24,700 nt of DNA from Fragilaria crotonensis (Eukaryota; Bacillariophyta; Fragilariophyceae; Fragilariales; Fragilariaceae). Position numbers and translations under genes: made by a program. Positions 3,064 through 24,330 of this stretch are shown here, piece by piece. Each line of letters begins with the position of its first letter. Position 1 is the stretch's first letter. The notes under the pieces were generated by a model, which was given only the letters and a program-made list of their open reading frames with translations, searched no databases and was not told the DNA's origin. Where the stretch lies: assembly GCA_022925895.1 (NCBI GenBank), contig JAKSYS010000796.1, positions 1-24,700 on the forward strand. Reading direction: 5' to 3'.

Positions 3064-3438
3064 ATGGATAGCACTACCACAGAGGAACATGAAAGCATGT
3101 TAACTGCTAGCAATGACATCTTCTACTCCCATGCAGAGAAGGAGAATTTGATTCACATTAAGGAGGAATTTGATGGAGAGTTTCCTGTCGGAACTGTGTT
3201 CACATCACGAAGGCACCTCATTGATGCAATGCGCAGAAAGGCAACAAAGTTTGGTTTCTTTATAGTTGACCACGGTATGGCTGCTTGTTGCTCTGAGACA
3301 ACTTCAAGGGATGCCCAGAATGCACGAAAACAGATAGCTCGGGAGTTGGTTGCTCAGGAAAGTGGCAAAACCTACATGCCAAAAAATCTGCAAGATCAAA
3401 ATGTGGGTGTGATTTCAAGGTTAACTTTACTCGAATGA
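3064..3438 (+). pseudogene. MULE transposase, N-terminal segment (frame 1)
   Basis: The start codon at 3064 is the first ATG giving an acidic N-terminus (MDSTTTEEHESM) and lies in a fair context (GCCATGG). The segment reads through a FAR1/MULE-like DNA-binding region (GEFPVGTVFTSRRHLIDAMRRKA...FGFFIVDHG). The true frame seems to change near 3297-3303: beyond that point the next frame is richer in cysteines (GCPEC, then KCGCDFKVNFTRM) and runs without a stop into the catalytic core, while this frame drifts and stops at 3438. The change is either a one-base deletion, a two-base insertion, or a splice I cannot see. The family role would be recognition of the transposon ends. Confidence 0.65.
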
Positions 3439-5228
3439 AGGGCAGTGAACAGGGAGGAGTTCGAATTTCGCACGTGCAATTCATGCATGGAAAGGGGTGC
3501 AAGCCTTCTGGAGAGCAATTTAAGGCTGCATGGCATAGCGGTGGACATGCATCGCGGCATCTGGCCCGCAAGCAGAATCTGAAGCTGCACACAATCGTCC
3601 AGCTACTGGCTAGTGAACAGAGGCCAAGTGCCAGAATGATGAGAGGCTTGCTTAGTGATATGTTGCCAAAAGATTTTGACATTTCCAGCAAATTCATCAA
3701 CAACGTGAAGACCAAGGTAAAGTTGAAGCTCACAAATGGAGACTTTGATCTTCTCCTTGCAGAAGGTACAGTCTCGGAGGGAGAGGCAGAGTTCATATTA
3801 AGTCCATGTGATAATCTACCTTCGGAATACCTGTCTATTGCTCAAGAGATTGCAAATGAGACGCTGAAAGAAGCACTCTCTGACCCAGGAAGTATGTGCC
3901 TGGTAGTTCAATACCTCTGCCGATTACACCAAGAGGATCCATCATTTCTATTTGACATCCAACGTGATGAAAATGATACCATGGTTGGAATTTGCTGGCA
4001 AACAGCCACGATGAGGTTTGACTGGGACACCTGTGCCTCGTCAATTGCACTTGATGGCATGAAGCGACAGCTTAACAACTTCTGTTACCCTTACATTGCT
4101 GTCACTGGTATTGACGGATATGGTCAGATGGTTGTGTGTGCAGAAGCAATTGTTATATCTGAGCAGATCGAGGCTTATGCATGGCTCCTTCGATGTTGCA
4201 GTACCTTTTCATGCAAGCGAAAGCTAGATGGTATCCATGTTGTGTTTGGTGATGGACTTGTCACTTGCAATAGCCTGCTCACATCTCTTGGCATTCAAGA
4301 CTCATGCTCCCTCCTTGACGACGTGCACCATCTTTTGTCTCCTGAGTGTGGTACATGGTATAAACAATTTGGAGTTAGCCGATGGAACCATTATGGCGGA
4401 TTGCTGAGAGCCTTGGTTTTTGAGTCATACTCCTTAGAGGCGTATGAGACAATACGGTCCAAGATTCTCACAATGATGGATTGTCGTGATGAGCCTCAAA
4501 GCCTCCGTAACTATTTCAACAACTTCATCCACGATGCAAGAAAACGATTTGCTCGGTATGCTGTTCATGCAACTCCATGTAATGAAGACCGTCTTGGATC
4601 TTCCATTGCAGAGGCTAATCATGCATCTTATGTAGCTCGCATTGGGGGTGGCAGCTGGGACGATCCTGTCACACAGGTAAAGGACTGTATCCTTTGCATG
4701 CAAGAGCTGTCAAATAAGAGGGCAAGTATTCGGGATCAGTACAGGCGACAGAGTGCAGCACGCAGTCACACTACATGTGACAAAACACTTGCTCTTATGC
4801 TTGTCAAACTGTCAACACGTGGATACTTGATCTGTGAAGAAGAATACAAGAAATCTTCAGAGTACTACTGTTCACTGCTGAGTGATAGCAGCGAACAAAA
4901 AGAAGTCCGAAGGAGAGGAGGAGAGTCATCCCGCAATGCTCGCCTTACCAATGGCAAGACGTGCTCATGCCGTGTCTATATTGCGTACCAGGTTCAATGT
5001 CGACACCTCTTCTCATTTCACAACGGAGAATTCAAGCTTTGGCTTGTCGATTCCAAGTTCCATGCCCATCCACTGTCAGCTTCCCCCCAAATCCAGATTA
5101 CACCGCTGTCCTGTCAGCATGGTGTGTCACCAGGGACCCTTATGTTGGTAGTCTTGGCGATGCATTGTTTTGTCAGCAGTCGGCAGCGTTGTCGAGCCCA
5201 GCTCCGCCAAGACAACCAAGCCCACTGA
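3300..5228 (+). pseudogene. MULE transposase, DDE catalytic core and SWIM zinc finger
   Basis: This open frame is continuous from about 3297 to 5228. After a Cys-rich DNA-binding stretch comes the MULE fold. Counting from the Met at 3435, the catalytic acids are D207 (in ALDGMKRQ), D273 (VVFGDG) and E393 (SSIAEANHAS), with the family's C-x-n-H after the second Asp (CSLLDDVHH). A SWIM finger follows as C510-x-C512-x9-C522-x-H524 (CSCRVYIAYQVQCRH). These are the hallmarks of Mutator/FAR1-type transposases, which cut and rejoin element ends in the nucleus. The catalytic residues are intact. The reading frame is lost just after the SWIM finger at a run of six C's near 5083-5088, where the remaining protein moves to another frame. 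Confidence 0.88.
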
Positions 5229-18151: not shown

Positions 18152-18724
18152 TGAATGTTTTAAAGTTAGCTTAGCTAAGAGTAGGTTGAGCGGGTTGATC
18201 GGGCACCACCAACCTAGTTTGGTTAGAAGTGTGCCTGTCGTATCGCTGATTCCGGTTCGTACTTTCTCGTTTCGTGTAGGATGTCGTGTAGGAATTCATC
18301 GGCCGAAGGTAATCGGTCGTTGTCATCAATAGTTTTGGATGCTGTCGGGTCCACCCGATTGAGGGGTCTTGGGCCGATGCTTTGGTCCTCTCCCGATTCT
18401 ACTCGTTCCGGAATGTACTGTACCGTCGTTTTCTCCCGCTGTCGCTTTGCAGACCTGGTAAACAATATAATTTGCATATGAGTTCAGCAAAAGTATTCAG
18501 TATTGGTGTTTAATACTGGTCGTACTGTCTACTGTACTACCGGTAGGTCATTATATCGATCCGGACTTGTTGCATGAGCCGAGGGACTTAACCACTCCAA
18601 CTCAGCATGCCACGTACGAGCTCTCTGAACTCGGAGCTCGAGGCTTATGCTTATATGTGGGTCCTTCGCCAGTTTATGTTAACGTTATAAATTGTTGCGA
18701 CCTGTTCGGGGAGATCTTTACTTC
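18152..18724 (-). other. Presumed 5' leader of the retrotransposon; small ORF 18223-18477
   Basis: This is the region upstream of gag. It holds one ATG-started minus-strand open frame at 18477-18223 (84 codons, MQIILFTRSAKRQREKTTVQY...) with no family I recognise. TATA-like runs lie just upstream on the minus strand (near 18460-18475 and 18553-18560), and a short inverted repeat CAGTATTGG/TAATACTGG lies at about 18499-18519. I could not find the terminal repeat of the retrotransposon, so its true 5' end is not defined. Confidence 0.35.
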
Positions 18725-18886
18725 CCCTAAGGGGGGCGGGGTTCAAACTAGATAAATTTTATTCGTGAATGATTTCATTTACTTGATACCACGGGAGGGA
18801 CTTCTATTTAGGAAGATGTACCACGGGAGGGATTTTCCTTGCCATGGGAGGGACTTTTTACTTAAGGACAAATACCACGGGAGGTA
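18725..18886 (+). promoter_or_regulatory. Iteron module 1: CCCTAAGG box plus four phased TACCACGGGAGGGA iterons
   Basis: The box at 18725 reads CCCTAA, six G's, CGGGGTTCAAACTAGATAA. The first iteron begins 62 bp after the box start. Iterons lie at 18787-18800, 18819-18832, 18840-18853 (variant TGCCATGGGAGGGA) and 18873-18886 (ending GGTA); start-to-start steps are 32, 21 and 33 bp. An inverted, weaker copy (TACCTCCCTTGTAGTA) lies at 18907-18922. The helicase-like gene starts about 75 bp further on. Steps near whole helical turns suggest a protein array bound to one DNA face. I interpret this as the left terminus and regulatory region of an uncharacterised element. Confidence 0.75.
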
Positions 18887-18997
18887 TGGAATTCATCACA
18901 CTCTCTACCTCCCTTGTAGTATGAAAATCCGTGCGCCAATTTTCAAATGAAAGCCATATCATTCATCCCTCAACTCCATTGTCCACCACAACAAACC

Positions 18998-20000
18998 ATG
19001 GACTTTAAAGTGTCTCAGATGACAAGCACCAAGCGAAAGGCAATGGTCCTTCAAGACATTCCACAAGAGGATGCAGACCCCATGCTTCCTATTAGGGATC
19101 TTTTCACATTTTCTCCTTTTGGTTTATGCTGTCGGCAATGTAAAAAAATTCAATTATTCAGCCTGATGAGCGATGCATCTCCCGGCATTTAAAAAAACAT
19201 GGTATGGACAGCAGAGTTGCTTTGGTTCGTTCTCTTCTCCTCGCTTTCGAATTGCAACTCGAAATTGCAAAGGCCTCAGGATCCATTGAATCATACCGAA
19301 GCGACAAGAATACCTACACCGGTTATTCCTGTAGATGTGGGATGGTTTTTCAATTAAGAAAAGACAACGCACTTCGACATTGCAAAAGAATGGGTTGTGA
19401 CGCATCCAAACTGCAAAAACTCGAGCTAATCAAGCTCTGCTGTGGTCGATATGTGTCCCCATCACAGGTCACTTCTCTATTTGGTGATGGACCATCCCGC
19501 ATAAAGAAACAATTTGATTATAAGGAGGCGAGAACTGTCCTTCTCCCATTGCTTCCTCAACGTGAAAAACAGGACCATACCTACACTCACATGTTCACCC
19601 CTCTTATTGCAGGATGCGGTGGTGGCAGCAAATTTGTCCAGAAGATAAAAATGGACTTCTTGTCAATCCACTCGGCACCACATCCTTCAAGTGAGAGATT
19701 GCTGATACACAAATTCACTCACATGCTGAGGATTGGCTTCTGAATTTCGCAACAAAAAATATTTTGATGGTGCCAGGCAATCTACGGGCTGCATTACAAA
19801 CCTTCGAAGGTGGTGAGGTTGATGAAATTTCGCATCGTTGCACATACACAATGCAACATGATCCCAGGAGTCTACTTCCTGAATTGAAGAAGCTTCTAGC
19901 CTTTTCGTACAGACAAGGTCTTTTTTTGTCACGAGGCTTTGACAACCATGATGCATTTGCAGTTCCCCTTCTTTTTGAAGGATTTGCTGCTGGAAGTCCC
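18998..20000 (+). pseudogene. Zinc-finger N-terminal part of a RecQ-like helicase element protein, frameshifted
   Basis: A likely start is the ATG at 18998 in good context (AAACCATGG). The first frame runs to a C2H2-like finger: CCRQC at 19127-19141 pairs with RHLKKH at 19183-19200, but only after a frame change in the A/T-rich run between them, and the original frame stops there. The next frame (from 19201, MDSRVALVRSLLLAFELQ) has a second Cys/His cluster (CRCGMVFQLRKDNALRHC, 19329-19383) and ends at 19743. Another frame (AEDWLLNFATKNILMVPGNLRAALQ) carries on, and a further change occurs before 20001. Paired N-terminal fingers ahead of a RecQ-like helicase are known to me from mobile or telomere-linked helicase genes of fungi; kinship here is inference. 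Confidence 0.55.
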
Positions 20001-20919
20001 TCAATCGGTGTCCTCTCTTCCCTTGGTTGCAGAATTCTGTCTTATGTTTGCTTTTCGAGTTCCTAAACATGGTTCAGAAATCAACATGATTTCATGCGAT
20101 ACAGTCTCATCTGTGTTCTCGAAGGTTGCATCAATTTTGAAAGCAGCAGTTTGTTCCGTTATTTGTTCGTTTGCGGAGCACTCCTTTACAACATTTGGTC
20201 CAGCACTTGTCAAATCAGTGCGAGAATCACCGGTCATTCATATTTTGTCACCAATGGTTCGTCAAATCCGTGAAATGCATCGTCGTTTACCCAAACGCCG
20301 AAAGACAACCCTTGATGCCATCGGAAATATAACGGTTGATCAGTTTACATTTTTGTATGATGATTGGTCTCAAATTGTACCTCGAACAGATTTCTTATGC
20401 GGGAAGCAATCTCCGAGTTGGCGATTGGGATATGGTGGGAGCCAGTTGTTGATCTCGACAAATGTCAAAGTAAGAGTCAATGAGGACACTGGAGACATTT
20501 TCCTTGTTGACATTTCTCCCGCCTGGAAACCAGTTCCTCTTTTGCCAATTGATCAGTGGGATTCCTTAACCGCACTGCTTGAGATGTCATTTCATGGCTT
20601 TGGTGGAGGATCCGCAAGAATGACAGAGTTAGCTGAACCGACAATGTTTCACTGCGTGTTTAGCAACCAGACCATCTATTATTCTCTCTCCTCATTGAAA
20701 GGTTTTAACAACACTTCACGAAGGAAGCATAAAGAAGTCGAGCGGAAACTCCCTCCACTTATTTGTCGGTACTTCCTTTTGTTCCGATCTCTTTTACAAG
20801 CAAACAAAAGCATATTGCGAGATGATGATGGTGGATGCTCAAGATTGATTTTTCCAAGTCGAAACAATCCAGCTGATTTTGGACCTTCCCATGTGATTCG
20901 AGATCTCTTCACTTTGTCA
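20001..20919 (+). repeat. Tandem duplication, copy 1 (919 bp)
   Basis: This segment of the helicase-element gene is repeated immediately as 20920-21841. Reading both copies side by side I found no substitutions, only two indels: copy 1 lacks one A at about 20392 and two bases (CT) at about 20452. The open frame 19939-20985 runs through this copy but is garbled between the two indels and stops after the junction, because 919 is not a multiple of three. Confidence 0.92.
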
Positions 20920-21841
20920 TCAATCGGTGTCCTCTCTTCCCTTGGTTGCAGAATTCTGTCTTATGTTTGCTTTTCGAGTTCCTAAACATGGTTCAGAAAT
21001 CAACATGATTTCATGCGATACAGTCTCATCTGTGTTCTCGAAGGTTGCATCAATTTTGAAAGCAGCAGTTTGTTCCGTTATTTGTTCGTTTGCGGAGCAC
21101 TCCTTTACAACATTTGGTCCAGCACTTGTCAAATCAGTGCGAGAATCACCGGTCATTCATATTTTGTCACCAATGGTTCGTCAAATCCGTGAAATGCATC
21201 GTCGTTTACCCAAACGCCGAAAGACAACCCTTGATGCCATCGGAAATATAACGGTTGATCAGTTTACATTTTTGTATGATGATTGGTCTCAAATTGTACC
21301 TCGAACAGAATTTCTTATGCGGGAAGCAATCTCCGAGTTGGCGATTGGGATATGGTGGGAGCCAGTTGTTGATCTCTCGACAAATGTCAAAGTAAGAGTC
21401 AATGAGGACACTGGAGACATTTTCCTTGTTGACATTTCTCCCGCCTGGAAACCAGTTCCTCTTTTGCCAATTGATCAGTGGGATTCCTTAACCGCACTGC
21501 TTGAGATGTCATTTCATGGCTTTGGTGGAGGATCCGCAAGAATGACAGAGTTAGCTGAACCGACAATGTTTCACTGCGTGTTTAGCAACCAGACCATCTA
21601 TTATTCTCTCTCCTCATTGAAAGGTTTTAACAACACTTCACGAAGGAAGCATAAAGAAGTCGAGCGGAAACTCCCTCCACTTATTTGTCGGTACTTCCTT
21701 TTGTTCCGATCTCTTTTACAAGCAAACAAAAGCATATTGCGAGATGATGATGGTGGATGCTCAAGATTGATTTTTCCAAGTCGAAACAATCCAGCTGATT
21801 TTGGACCTTCCCATGTGATTCGAGATCTCTTCACTTTGTCA
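20920..21841 (+). repeat. Tandem duplication, copy 2 (922 bp)
   Basis: The second, apparently intact copy of 20001-20919. The sequence between the two indel sites translates sensibly here (FLMREAISELAIGIWWEPVVDL) and not in copy 1, so copy 2 preserves the ancestral state. The junction shares the bases TCA with the sequence after copy 2, consistent with slippage or unequal exchange at microhomology. Such near-perfect tandem copies can also be assembly artefacts. Confidence 0.92.
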
Positions 21842-22465
21842 TCATTGCCAGACATGACACAAGTACGACAGTTTTGGGCTTGCGTTACAAATTTTGTTAC
21901 AAGTGGCAATCTTCAAAACAAATTTTTGACATCAAGTGCCATCGGAGCATCAAAAATGGGTCATTCTACCTATACACATGCAAGCACCTATTCAACTGAA
22001 CAAATCGGTTCCGAGGAGGCCCACTTTGATGCATATCATTCTGCAATTGGGGATACCTCGCATCATCTATTGAAGTGTCGGAGTATGTTGTCCTTGTCAG
22101 ATATTCGTAAGGCAATGCAGCTTCGGTTTCCAAAGTCCTCCTCATTGGAGAGCAACAACTACCTCTCGACACAACAGAAAGAGTTAGTTGAGTTTGGTTA
22201 TGGTCCCGGATCCTCCAAAAAGCAGCATTGTCTTGCTCTTCTTGCTCCAGGTGATGGAAAGTCTGAGTCCTACATCATTCCGACCATTGCTCGTTATCTC
22301 GCAAACCATGATTGCAAGACAATTATCCATATCTCACCTTACAGTTTTCTGGCTGGATACCAGTTTGCAAATGCTTCTGCTGTTATCGAGAAGCTTGGGT
22401 TGGATTCATACATTTCACTGCTCTCGTTCACAGGAAGGGATATTACCCAAATGGCTATTCCCTAA
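20927..22465 (+). pseudogene. Helicase-element protein, central region, YR-like motif and truncated RecQ-like helicase
   Basis: This 512-codon frame is open but has no natural start or end. The middle part (residues 1-300) is an unassigned domain. Around 21860-22000 it reads TQVRQFWACVTNFV and then KMGHSTYTHASTY, an R...GHS...Y spacing resembling the last boxes of tyrosine recombinases. A linker with FDAYHSAIGD follows, then LSTQQKELVEFG and a Walker A-like APGDGKSES (22244-22267), then IIHISPYSFLAGYQ, matching motifs 0, I and Ia of RecQ-family SF2 helicases. Normal RecQ Walker A is usually TGxGKS, so APGDGKS is slightly unusual. Motif II (DExH) and everything beyond are missing: coding stops exactly where iteron module 2 begins (MAIP then TAA in CCCTAAGG). 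Confidence 0.65.
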
Positions 22466-22619
22466 GGGGGCGGGGTTCCAATTAGATAAGAATTCCTCAA
22501 GTATATATATATTTAGTACATACGTTGGGAGCCATTTTATTTAGGGATTTGTACGTCGGGAGCCAATTTTCATACGTCGGGAGCCTATATTTTACTAATG
22601 ATTTTTACGTTGGGAGCTG
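22460..22619 (+). promoter_or_regulatory. Iteron module 2: CCCTAAGG box plus four phased TACGTYGGGAGCC iterons
   Basis: The box begins at 22460 and reads CCCTAAGGGGGCGGGGTTC followed by CAATTAGATAA. Iterons lie at 22521-22534 (TACGTTGGGAGCCA), 22552-22565 (TACGTCGGGAGCCA), 22573-22586 (ending CCT) and 22606-22619 (TACGTTGGGAGCTG). Box to first iteron is 61 bp and the steps are 31, 21 and 33 bp. The spacer after iteron 1 keeps the TTTATTTAG core seen in the other modules. The module cuts off the helicase frame at its first base and is followed by 112 bp of unassigned sequence. A half-site in the opposite direction (GCTCCTATAG, about 22626) trails it. Confidence 0.75.
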
Positions 22620-22731
22620 CAATGTGCTCCTATAGTCTCCAGTAGGTTTGATTTGAATTCAAATGTAACATTCAAATACAACTTATTACAGGCCATGTCA
22701 TCGACAACAAAGAGCCATCTGTGTTATGCTG

Positions 22732-22890
22732 CCCTAAGGGGGCGGGGTTCAAACTAGATAAATATTCCTCAGATATACATATTTTTACTTGATACCACAG
22801 GAGCTATTTTATTTAGAGAAAAGTACCACAGGAGCCAAATTTCTGCCATCGGAGCCGCTTTTCACATAGCAAAATATACCATAGGAGCTA
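22732..22890 (+). promoter_or_regulatory. Iteron module 3: CCCTAAGG box plus four phased TACCACAGGAGCCA iterons
   Basis: The box at 22732 is almost identical to that of module 1 (same GGTTCAAACTAGATAAAT). Iterons lie at 22793-22806 (TACCACAGGAGCTA), 22824-22837 (TACCACAGGAGCCA), 22844-22857 (variant TGCCATCGGAGCCG) and 22877-22890 (TACCATAGGAGCTA). Box to first iteron is 61 bp and the steps are 31, 20 and 33 bp. As in module 1, the third iteron is the variant beginning TGCCAT. An opposite-direction half-site (GATCCCGTAG, about 22897) follows, aligned with the one after module 2. No protein gene follows; the sequence runs into a satellite. Confidence 0.75.
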
Positions 22891-23049: not shown

Positions 23050-24330
23050 ATTGTTTGCATCATTAACCGGTACGTTTCATTCAATGGCCTACTATCAAAC
23101 TTTGTTCGAGGGTTATTTGTCTCAACGTCCGTCGTTTCAGATTTTCCATTGGACTATTTTTGGTGAAGATGGATAATGAAATGCAGAGATGGTCAACATG
23201 CCAATCACGATTCAAAACTCGAAATTTGTTCGCCATTCAGCTGTTTGCATCATTAACCGGTACGTTTCATTCGATGGCCTACTATCAAACTTTGTTCGAG
23301 GGTTATTTGTCTCAACGTCCGTTGTTTCAGATTTTCCATTGGACTATTTTTGGTGAAGATGGATAATGAAATGCAGAGATGGTCAACATGCCAATCACGA
23401 TTCAAAACTCGAAATTCGTTCGCCATTCTGCTGTTTGCATCATTAACCGGTCATTTCGTTCGATGGCCTACTATCAAACTTTGTTCGAGGGTCATTTGTC
23501 TCAACGTCCGTCGTTTCAGATTTTCAAATGGACTATTTTTGGTGAAGATGGATAATGAAATGCAGAGATGGTCAACATGCCAATCACGATTCAAAACTCG
23601 AAATTCGTTCGCCATTCAGCTGTTTGCATCATTAACCGGTCGTTTCGTTCGATGGCCTACTATCAAACTTTGTTCGAGGATCATTTGTCTCAACGTCCGT
23701 TGTTTCAGATTTTCCATTGGACTATTTTTGGTGAAGATGGATAATGAAATGCAGAGATGGTCAACATGCCAATCACGATTCAAAACTCGAAATTCGTTCG
23801 CCATTCAGCTGTTTGCATCATTAACCGGTTCATTTCGTTCGATGGCCTACTATCAAACTTTGTTCGAGGGTCATTTGTCTCAACGTCCGTTGTTTCAGAT
23901 TTTCAATTGGACTATTTTTGGTGAAGATGGATAATGAAATGCAGAGATGGTCAACATGGCAATCACGATTCAAAACTCGAAATTCGTTCGCCATTCTGCT
24001 GTTTGCATCGTTAACCGGTACGTTTCGTTCACTGATCTTCTATCAAACTTTCTTTGAGGATGATTTGTCTCAACGTCCGTCATTTCAGATTTTCAATTGG
24101 ACTATTTTTGGTGACGATAGAGAATGATATGCAGAGATGGTCAACATGGCAATCACGATTCAAAACTCGAAATTCGTTCGCCAATCAGCTGTTTGCATCG
24201 TTAACCGGTACGTTTCGTTCACTGATCTTCTATCAAACTTTCTTCGAGGATGATTTGTCTCAAGGTTCGTCGTTTCAGATTTTCAATTGGATCACTTTTC
24301 GTGAAAATACAGTATGCGGCGTCGGTGCAC
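23050..24330. repeat. Satellite array, 189-190-bp unit, about seven copies
   Basis: The landmark CTGTTTGCATCATTAACCGG (first copy slightly different) begins near 23051, 23241, 23431, 23620, 23809, 23999 and 24189, giving periods of 190, 190, 189, 189, 190 and 190 bp. Each unit also holds CGTCCGTTGTTTCAGATTTT, GGACTATTTTTGGTGAAGAT and AATGCAGAGATGGTCAACAT blocks. The last two copies share variants (CTGATCTTC, GATGATTTGTCTCAA) and form a sub-family. Where units are 189 bp (63 codons) a plus-strand frame stays open across several copies (23350-23934), a by-product of length. The array starts about 160 bp after iteron module 3. Confidence 0.92.

Follow-up and report, generated by a model that had tools for sequence, protein, structure and literature searches.

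The Y' elements of yeast are helicase-coding repeats that lie beside the telomere and adjoin telomeric tracts proximally. Starships carry a recombinase gene at one element end together with variable cargo, and both Starships and Cryptons use a tyrosine recombinase. To our knowledge, all known elements that attach to chromosome ends are retroelements. Among these, Terminons, HeT-A/TART, MoTeR and FoTeR form head-to-tail arrays of truncated copies at chromosome ends, and the available part of the Terminon paper describes attachment to G-rich telomere repeats (PMC6431247). Subtelomeric RecQ helicase families, several per genome and partly truncated, are described for Agaricus in the available part of PMC7473861. 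Here we analyze contig C776 (JAKSYS010000796.1) of the diatom Fragilaria crotonensis, all 24,700 nucleotides of which are referred to as the window (assembly of 62.1 Mb in 881 contigs). It contains three modules, each consisting of a box and four iterons, that probably constitute the proximal attachment ends of a chromosome-end DNA element.

The boxes of modules 1, 2 and 3 start at 18725, 22460 and 22732, and the first iterons follow at 18787, 22521 and 22793, i.e. 62, 61 and 61 bp from the box. The iteron steps are 32/21/33, 31/21/33 and 31/20/33 bp, respectively, and TGCCAT is the form of iteron 3 in modules 1 and 3. A reading of the window made from its letters alone (the sequence-only reading) had reported these positions and spacings, and all were reproduced except that the module 1 box contains six G residues (CCCTAAGGGGGGCGGGG); the other two boxes contain five. 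It had not recognized that each module is an element end and not a standalone array. The window contains the following features.

18724..18741, plus strand: box of module 1, type A (CCCCTAAGGGGGGCGGGG); the element 5' end CCTAAGG begins at 18726.
18787..18885, plus strand: iterons of module 1, type A (TACCACGGGAGGG), at 18787, 18819, 18840 and 18873; the third is TGCCATGGGAGGG.
18998..22459 (start approximate), plus strand: type A gene, truncated and frameshifted, cut by module 2; the uninterrupted target is in C413.
21278..22060, plus strand: predicted tyrosine-recombinase catalytic domain (alignment of 36 proteins, structure model and structure comparison).
22217..22459, plus strand: first part of the SF2 helicase, which the junction interrupts; its DEAD match (E 0.0026) is under the curated cut-off in this truncated copy, with the full domain on C783.
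22460..22475, plus strand: box of module 2, type B, joined to the type A helicase gene at target ATTCC/CGAGG (slash at the junction).
22521..22618, plus strand: iterons of module 2, type B (TACGTYGGGAGCC), at 22521, 22552, 22573 and 22606.
22619..22731, plus strand: type B element remnant of 113 bp, cut by module 3, target GCTGCC/CATTCC.
22732..22747, plus strand: box of module 3, type C.
22793..22889, plus strand: iterons of module 3, type C (TACCACAGGAGCC), at 22793, 22824, 22844 and 22877; the third is TGCCAT.
23052..24305, plus strand: 190-bp tandem array carried by module 3 as non-gene cargo; cargo under type D modules is about 87% identical to it.

A genome-wide search, which the sequence-only reading had proposed as a check, recovered 42 matches to the box core and 32 to a second box variant (GGAAAAGGGG), each with up to three mismatches, compared to none in the controls. 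With one further box on C490, at least 75 distinct boxes are present on 29 of the 881 contigs. The three-iteron spacing pattern gave 15 matches genome-wide, compared to 0 for the reversed control. Fifty-seven modules on 21 contigs were readable (54 found by script and 3 with a degenerate box added by hand), and iteron types were assigned by eye from the printed modules together with an automatic spacing fit. The modules fall into about 11 types, of which G/I and E/E2 are close pairs; the proposed concerted change of iterons within a module is supported. Six types (A, B, C, D, F and G2) have steps near 31/21/33, as does one type I module out of two, and spacing in most types is near 2 or 3 helical turns. 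Type E has steps of 21/21/32 by eye and 25/21/32 by automatic fit, and a four-iteron array is a poor fit for the other type I module and for types G, H and E2. The fixed, helically phased spacing claimed earlier therefore holds for most types but not strictly for the whole family. Outside this genome, a protein-profile scan detected no relative in viral contigs, and the single box match there was an unrelated GC-rich hairpin.

Box orientation was uniform on every contig with two or more boxes (65 boxes on 19 contigs, none discordant). The telomere repeat of F. crotonensis is a CCCTAA/CCCCTAA mix, and a search with two exact telomere patterns identified telomere arrays at the start of C23, C490, C592 and C754. 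All four contigs carry minus-strand boxes, which point toward the telomere; by contig count, unweighted for length, all four would fall among the 29 box contigs with a probability of about 1e-6. Telomere repeats are absent from most of the other contigs. The last box of C592 is 13.7 kb from the contig start, and its element ends in a 53-bp tandem array of about 2.2 kb, beyond which the telomere begins. In the 16 kb of C592 that were read, the gene cut at oriented position 1702 had no continuation before the telomere at the sensitivity of BLAST, which rules out a nested two-sided insertion on this contig. C84 is 99% identical to C592 over 13.3 kb and stops inside the 53-bp array. The element body of C592 also occurs in C783, C258 and two C121 copies with different flanks, and a 600-bp piece from its distal half matches only C592, C84 and C783. 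C754 is compatible with a one-sided structure, and the SF2 helicase gene sits between box and telomere on both C592 and C754. On C23, which was covered in part only, about 0.8 kb separates the last module from the telomere.

Telomere repeats were also seen internally on two contigs. A short match at C411:23106 lies between two modules (boxes 23593- and 22646-), as if an end had healed before the next element attached. C427 contains facing internal arrays at 70399-70733 and 97119, 26 kb apart, that represent a fusion or a misassembly; box searches found no box on this contig.

Junctions were examined for 54 modules. Sixteen independent junctions, with duplicated contigs counted once, had a homologue of the uninterrupted target with at least 88% identity; the remaining modules had no homologue, had homologues of lower identity, or had only homologues that also carry a box, and C258:7574 was excluded (69% identity, unaligned tail). 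At the position of the element start CCTAAGG, the target reads CC in 14 of the 16 resolvable junctions and CCT in nine of those 14. Our script counted 14 of 15 because it omitted a junction with filler sequence. The frequency of CC is 0.046; as end-to-end alignment conditions the first C, a test restricted to the second C (frequency 0.22) is fairer and gives about 1e-8 when calculated by hand. The window itself contains two such junctions: module 2 interrupts the type A helicase gene, for which C413:6365 shows the uninterrupted form, and module 3 interrupts a type B element that is uninterrupted in C349 and C703. At the 54 module starts, unrelated flanks meet at CCTAAGG or near it (TCTAAGG at C84:61217 and CCTAAGT at C754:13120). 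A truncated copy of the family gene lies immediately upstream of 16 of the 57 boxes, in the sense orientation in every case. A proximal end seeded by telomerase was ruled out, as none of the 54 junctions has two directly adjacent CCCTAA units at the box.

Two repeats were found at junctions. A 16-bp tandem repeat (acaagtacctactagt), present on C783 at about 4500-4890 and also on C592 and C84, is the target at several of them. Upstream of the boxes at C588:12138 and C754:12756 is a short repeat (cctaaggagaaggccctaagg) that itself contains CCTAAGG, so that a second CCTAAGG lies about 15 bp farther upstream.

Cargo was compared pairwise; single-linkage clustering and its mean identities were set aside because unrelated groups were chained via tandem repeats. 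Same-type modules over unrelated cargo share about 160-200 bp, ending just beyond iteron 4, which itself ends near element position 156. The common start was 161 bp for type B (C349 and C84, 96% identity), 161 bp for type D (C122:27646 and C592, 94%), 160 bp for type C in the window and C578 (97%), 187 bp for type C in C84 and C578 (94%), and about 200 bp for C23 and C578 (84%). As same-type elements with unlike cargo have only this start in common, we conclude that box and iterons are the mobile cis unit. In the window, a type C module lies over the type D-like 190-bp array; together with the shared-start pairs, this indicates that module and cargo reassort. Modules also occur without the family gene, over unrelated cargo, and C413:9171 is a natural recombinant whose leader is D'-like (98% over 62 bp), while its iterons (100%) and gene are of type A. 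Two long open reading frames without a significant family match are present on a 13-kb type D element (L075:7936-9396 and L075:4424-6424).

Autonomous types encode a single protein containing, in order, zinc fingers, a tyrosine recombinase, an SF2 (RecQ-like) helicase and a cysteine-rich tail. The truncated type A gene of the window contains the zinc fingers, the recombinase domain and the helicase start, in agreement with the zinc-finger/helicase gene noticed earlier downstream of module 1. The telomere-ward orientation, the cut-off predecessors and the recombinase domain go beyond what the sequence-only reading had recognized. The longest relatives, from metagenomes, have about 1,320-1,370 amino acids. 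Zinc-finger ligands are C29, C32, H50 and H54 in finger 1, followed by C98, C100, H113, C119 and C134; type C copies have S in place of C32. Residues R88, E91, L92, K115, Q195, R197, H229, T233, H234 and Y238, numbered within the recombinase domain (window 21278-22060), are invariant across 36 proteins with identities down to about 30%. Among them is the catalytic set R-K-R-H-Y (window R 21539, K 21620, R 21866, H 21962 and Y 21989), in which H and Y are nine residues apart. XerD-type recombinases have the same nine-residue spacing. The domain model had a predicted template modelling score (pTM) of 0.81, and structure comparison matched it to Cre, XerH, XerA, XerD and type IB topoisomerases. 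The modelled fold and the catalytic residues place the domain in the tyrosine recombinase superfamily, with T at the position of the HxxR histidine in most proteins. Helicase profiles matched DHX58/LGP2, BLM and RECQ5, with the full domain on C783, and point with moderate confidence to a RecQ-like enzyme. The reading frame with the gene start begins about 230 bp downstream of the box in type D. Comparison of copies suggests that the frameshifts present in many of them are assembly errors at homopolymers.

The sequence-only reading suggested that each iteron array is matched to its own protein. Same-type elements without common cargo keep box and iterons (94-97% identity in three pairs), an argument for recognition in trans that is specific to the type. 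The module and zinc finger 1 distinguish types C and D; from about position 420 onward, most 60-column blocks are 97-100% identical between the two, and a few are lower (93, 90 and 77). Like the C413:9171 hybrid, the C/D pair is a natural recombinant that shows modularity. This pattern and the C413:9171 hybrid fit the hypothesis that finger 1 reads the iterons. However, module and finger 1 are adjacent, so a single crossover explains the C/D pattern equally well without a link to specificity, and type C copies are short of one zinc ligand in finger 1 (C32). The proposed matching is thus supported, not proven.

How the element compares with described systems depends on which part is considered. 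Integrase of lambda, with its core and arm sites, and geminivirus Rep, with its iterons, both place a conserved core or cleavage site at a fixed phased distance from type-specific docking sites; the likeness to the diatom box and iterons is a mechanistic analogy and implies no membership. The element has a tyrosine recombinase, as do Cryptons and Starships; unlike them, it has a fused SF2 helicase and one-sided attachment, no flanking direct repeat was seen, and on C592, the one contig concerned, the target does not continue past the element. Its proximal boundary, a box and iterons joined at CC(Y) in unrelated sequence, differs from the telomeric tracts that bound Y' elements. It resembles the telomeric retroelements in forming head-to-tail truncated arrays by one-way accretion, with the chromosome end itself seen on four contigs. 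These retroelements use reverse transcriptase, whereas none of at least 111 RVT_1 matches fell within type D spans or the window. Terminon attachment to G-rich telomere repeats also differs from CC(Y) junctions, as judged from the available part of PMC6431247. The telomere-linked helicases of fungi are likewise RecQ-like, located at chromosome ends and sometimes truncated; unlike the diatom element, they are described without box, iterons or one-sided mobile unit in the available part of PMC7473861, in the main text of which the word recombinase does not occur. Homology searches of limited sensitivity returned no named fungal protein among the relatives of the diatom protein. Open-licence literature searches turned up no diatom or recombinase-helicase chromosome-end element, and none is described in the available parts of PMC7473861, PMC6431247 and the fungal telomere review PMC8381367, or in the passages of PMC12633428, PMC12477816 and PMC10799480 retrieved by term searches.

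The established parts of our interpretation are the module geometry, the orientation, the junction rule, the cis unit and the protein architecture. The most probable explanation for them is that box and iterons form the proximal attachment end of a mobile DNA element of chromosome ends. Its protein would dock on the iterons of its type and join the box to CC(Y) sites. The zinc fingers would bind the iterons, arm-like sites phased on one DNA face, and the recombinase domain would cleave or join at the box, a core-like site, with the help of 2-4 bp homologous to a CC(Y) site or end. The helicase may help to copy or move all DNA from box to telomere, by which the recipient chromosome would gain a new end, and a same-type protein would mobilize non-autonomous modules in trans. 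We suggest more tentatively that this is a new class, a DNA-only telomere-building element in which a single zinc-finger/tyrosine-recombinase/RecQ-like protein installs a whole new end at CC(Y) sites or broken ends and about 11 insulated types, with fingers matched to phased iterons, mobilize non-autonomous modules in trans. If so, chromosome ends would be healed in a separate way, by a recombinase-helicase DNA element. Its natural types and hybrids, together with the modules that lack a gene, would offer a ready set for learning how a zinc-finger recombinase reads iterons, with a possible use in engineering one-sided, end-directed DNA addition.

Several observations weigh against this interpretation. 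Two junctions lack CC: one is C431:33706, and the other, in the C592/C84 pair, contains about 9 nt of filler. End-to-end alignment also conditions the first C, and six junctions with weaker homologues (72-84%), outside the main count, comprise two with CC, three without and one unclear. No family-gene match was found in 41 of the 57 upstream flanks. One-sidedness is seen mainly on C592, and the telomere is the only 3' junction known for these elements. Nearness to a chromosome end was observed on the four telomere-bearing contigs; on other contigs it is an assumption, as most of these lack telomere repeats and several boxes lie 30-155 kb from the contig end to which they point (about 155 kb on C273, 59 kb on C122, 60 kb for C121:29071, and 31-37 kb on C300, C349 and C411). 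A D' cargo base (C122:30232, C121:83993 and C23:1482) precedes type A on two contigs and type H on the third, which may reflect a preferred site or a natural 3' end. In the protein, the HxxR histidine is mostly replaced, Foldseek alone gave a best E of 0.35 for the recombinase domain, which is not significant, with XerH ranked first, and the whole-protein model had no significant Foldseek match.

A Y'-like subtelomeric repeat, in which host break-induced replication copies a terminal segment to broken ends, with the box as no more than a preferred place of invasion or a boundary, would account for the one-sided structure to the telomere, the helicase gene, the tandem array near the telomere and the 2-4 bp microhomology at junctions. 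C592 and C84 also have some DNA upstream of the element in common, which speaks for such copying. This explanation is nevertheless unlikely, as unrelated flanks meet at CCTAAGG or nearly so in 54 modules, same-type elements may keep box and iterons alone over unrelated cargo, and the protein has an invariant recombinase catalytic set. That last feature, a recombinase gene adjoining one element end and a short core common to element and target would equally suit a circular Crypton- or Starship-like insertion at CC(T) whose distal target half was later lost by chromosome-end erosion. We consider this still less likely, given the uniform box orientation and C592, where no remainder of the cut gene lies between box and telomere and the type D element ends in telomere repeats. 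Least probable is that the module is just a promoter, belonging to a family of subtelomeric helicase genes that segmental duplication has spread; the type D gene-start frame, about 230 bp past the box, speaks for it, but modules exist without a gene and over unrelated cargo, and their junctions are at CC.

An Rfam scan of the window at gathering thresholds and a phage comparison gave no match. The type A gene contains a near-exact tandem duplication of about 920 bp (window 20001-20918 and 20920-21838) that is single copy in C413 and could be real or an assembly error. Elsewhere in the window, an open reading frame at 3435-5228 has weak matches to MULE transposase and SWIM zinc-finger profiles, both under curated cut-offs.

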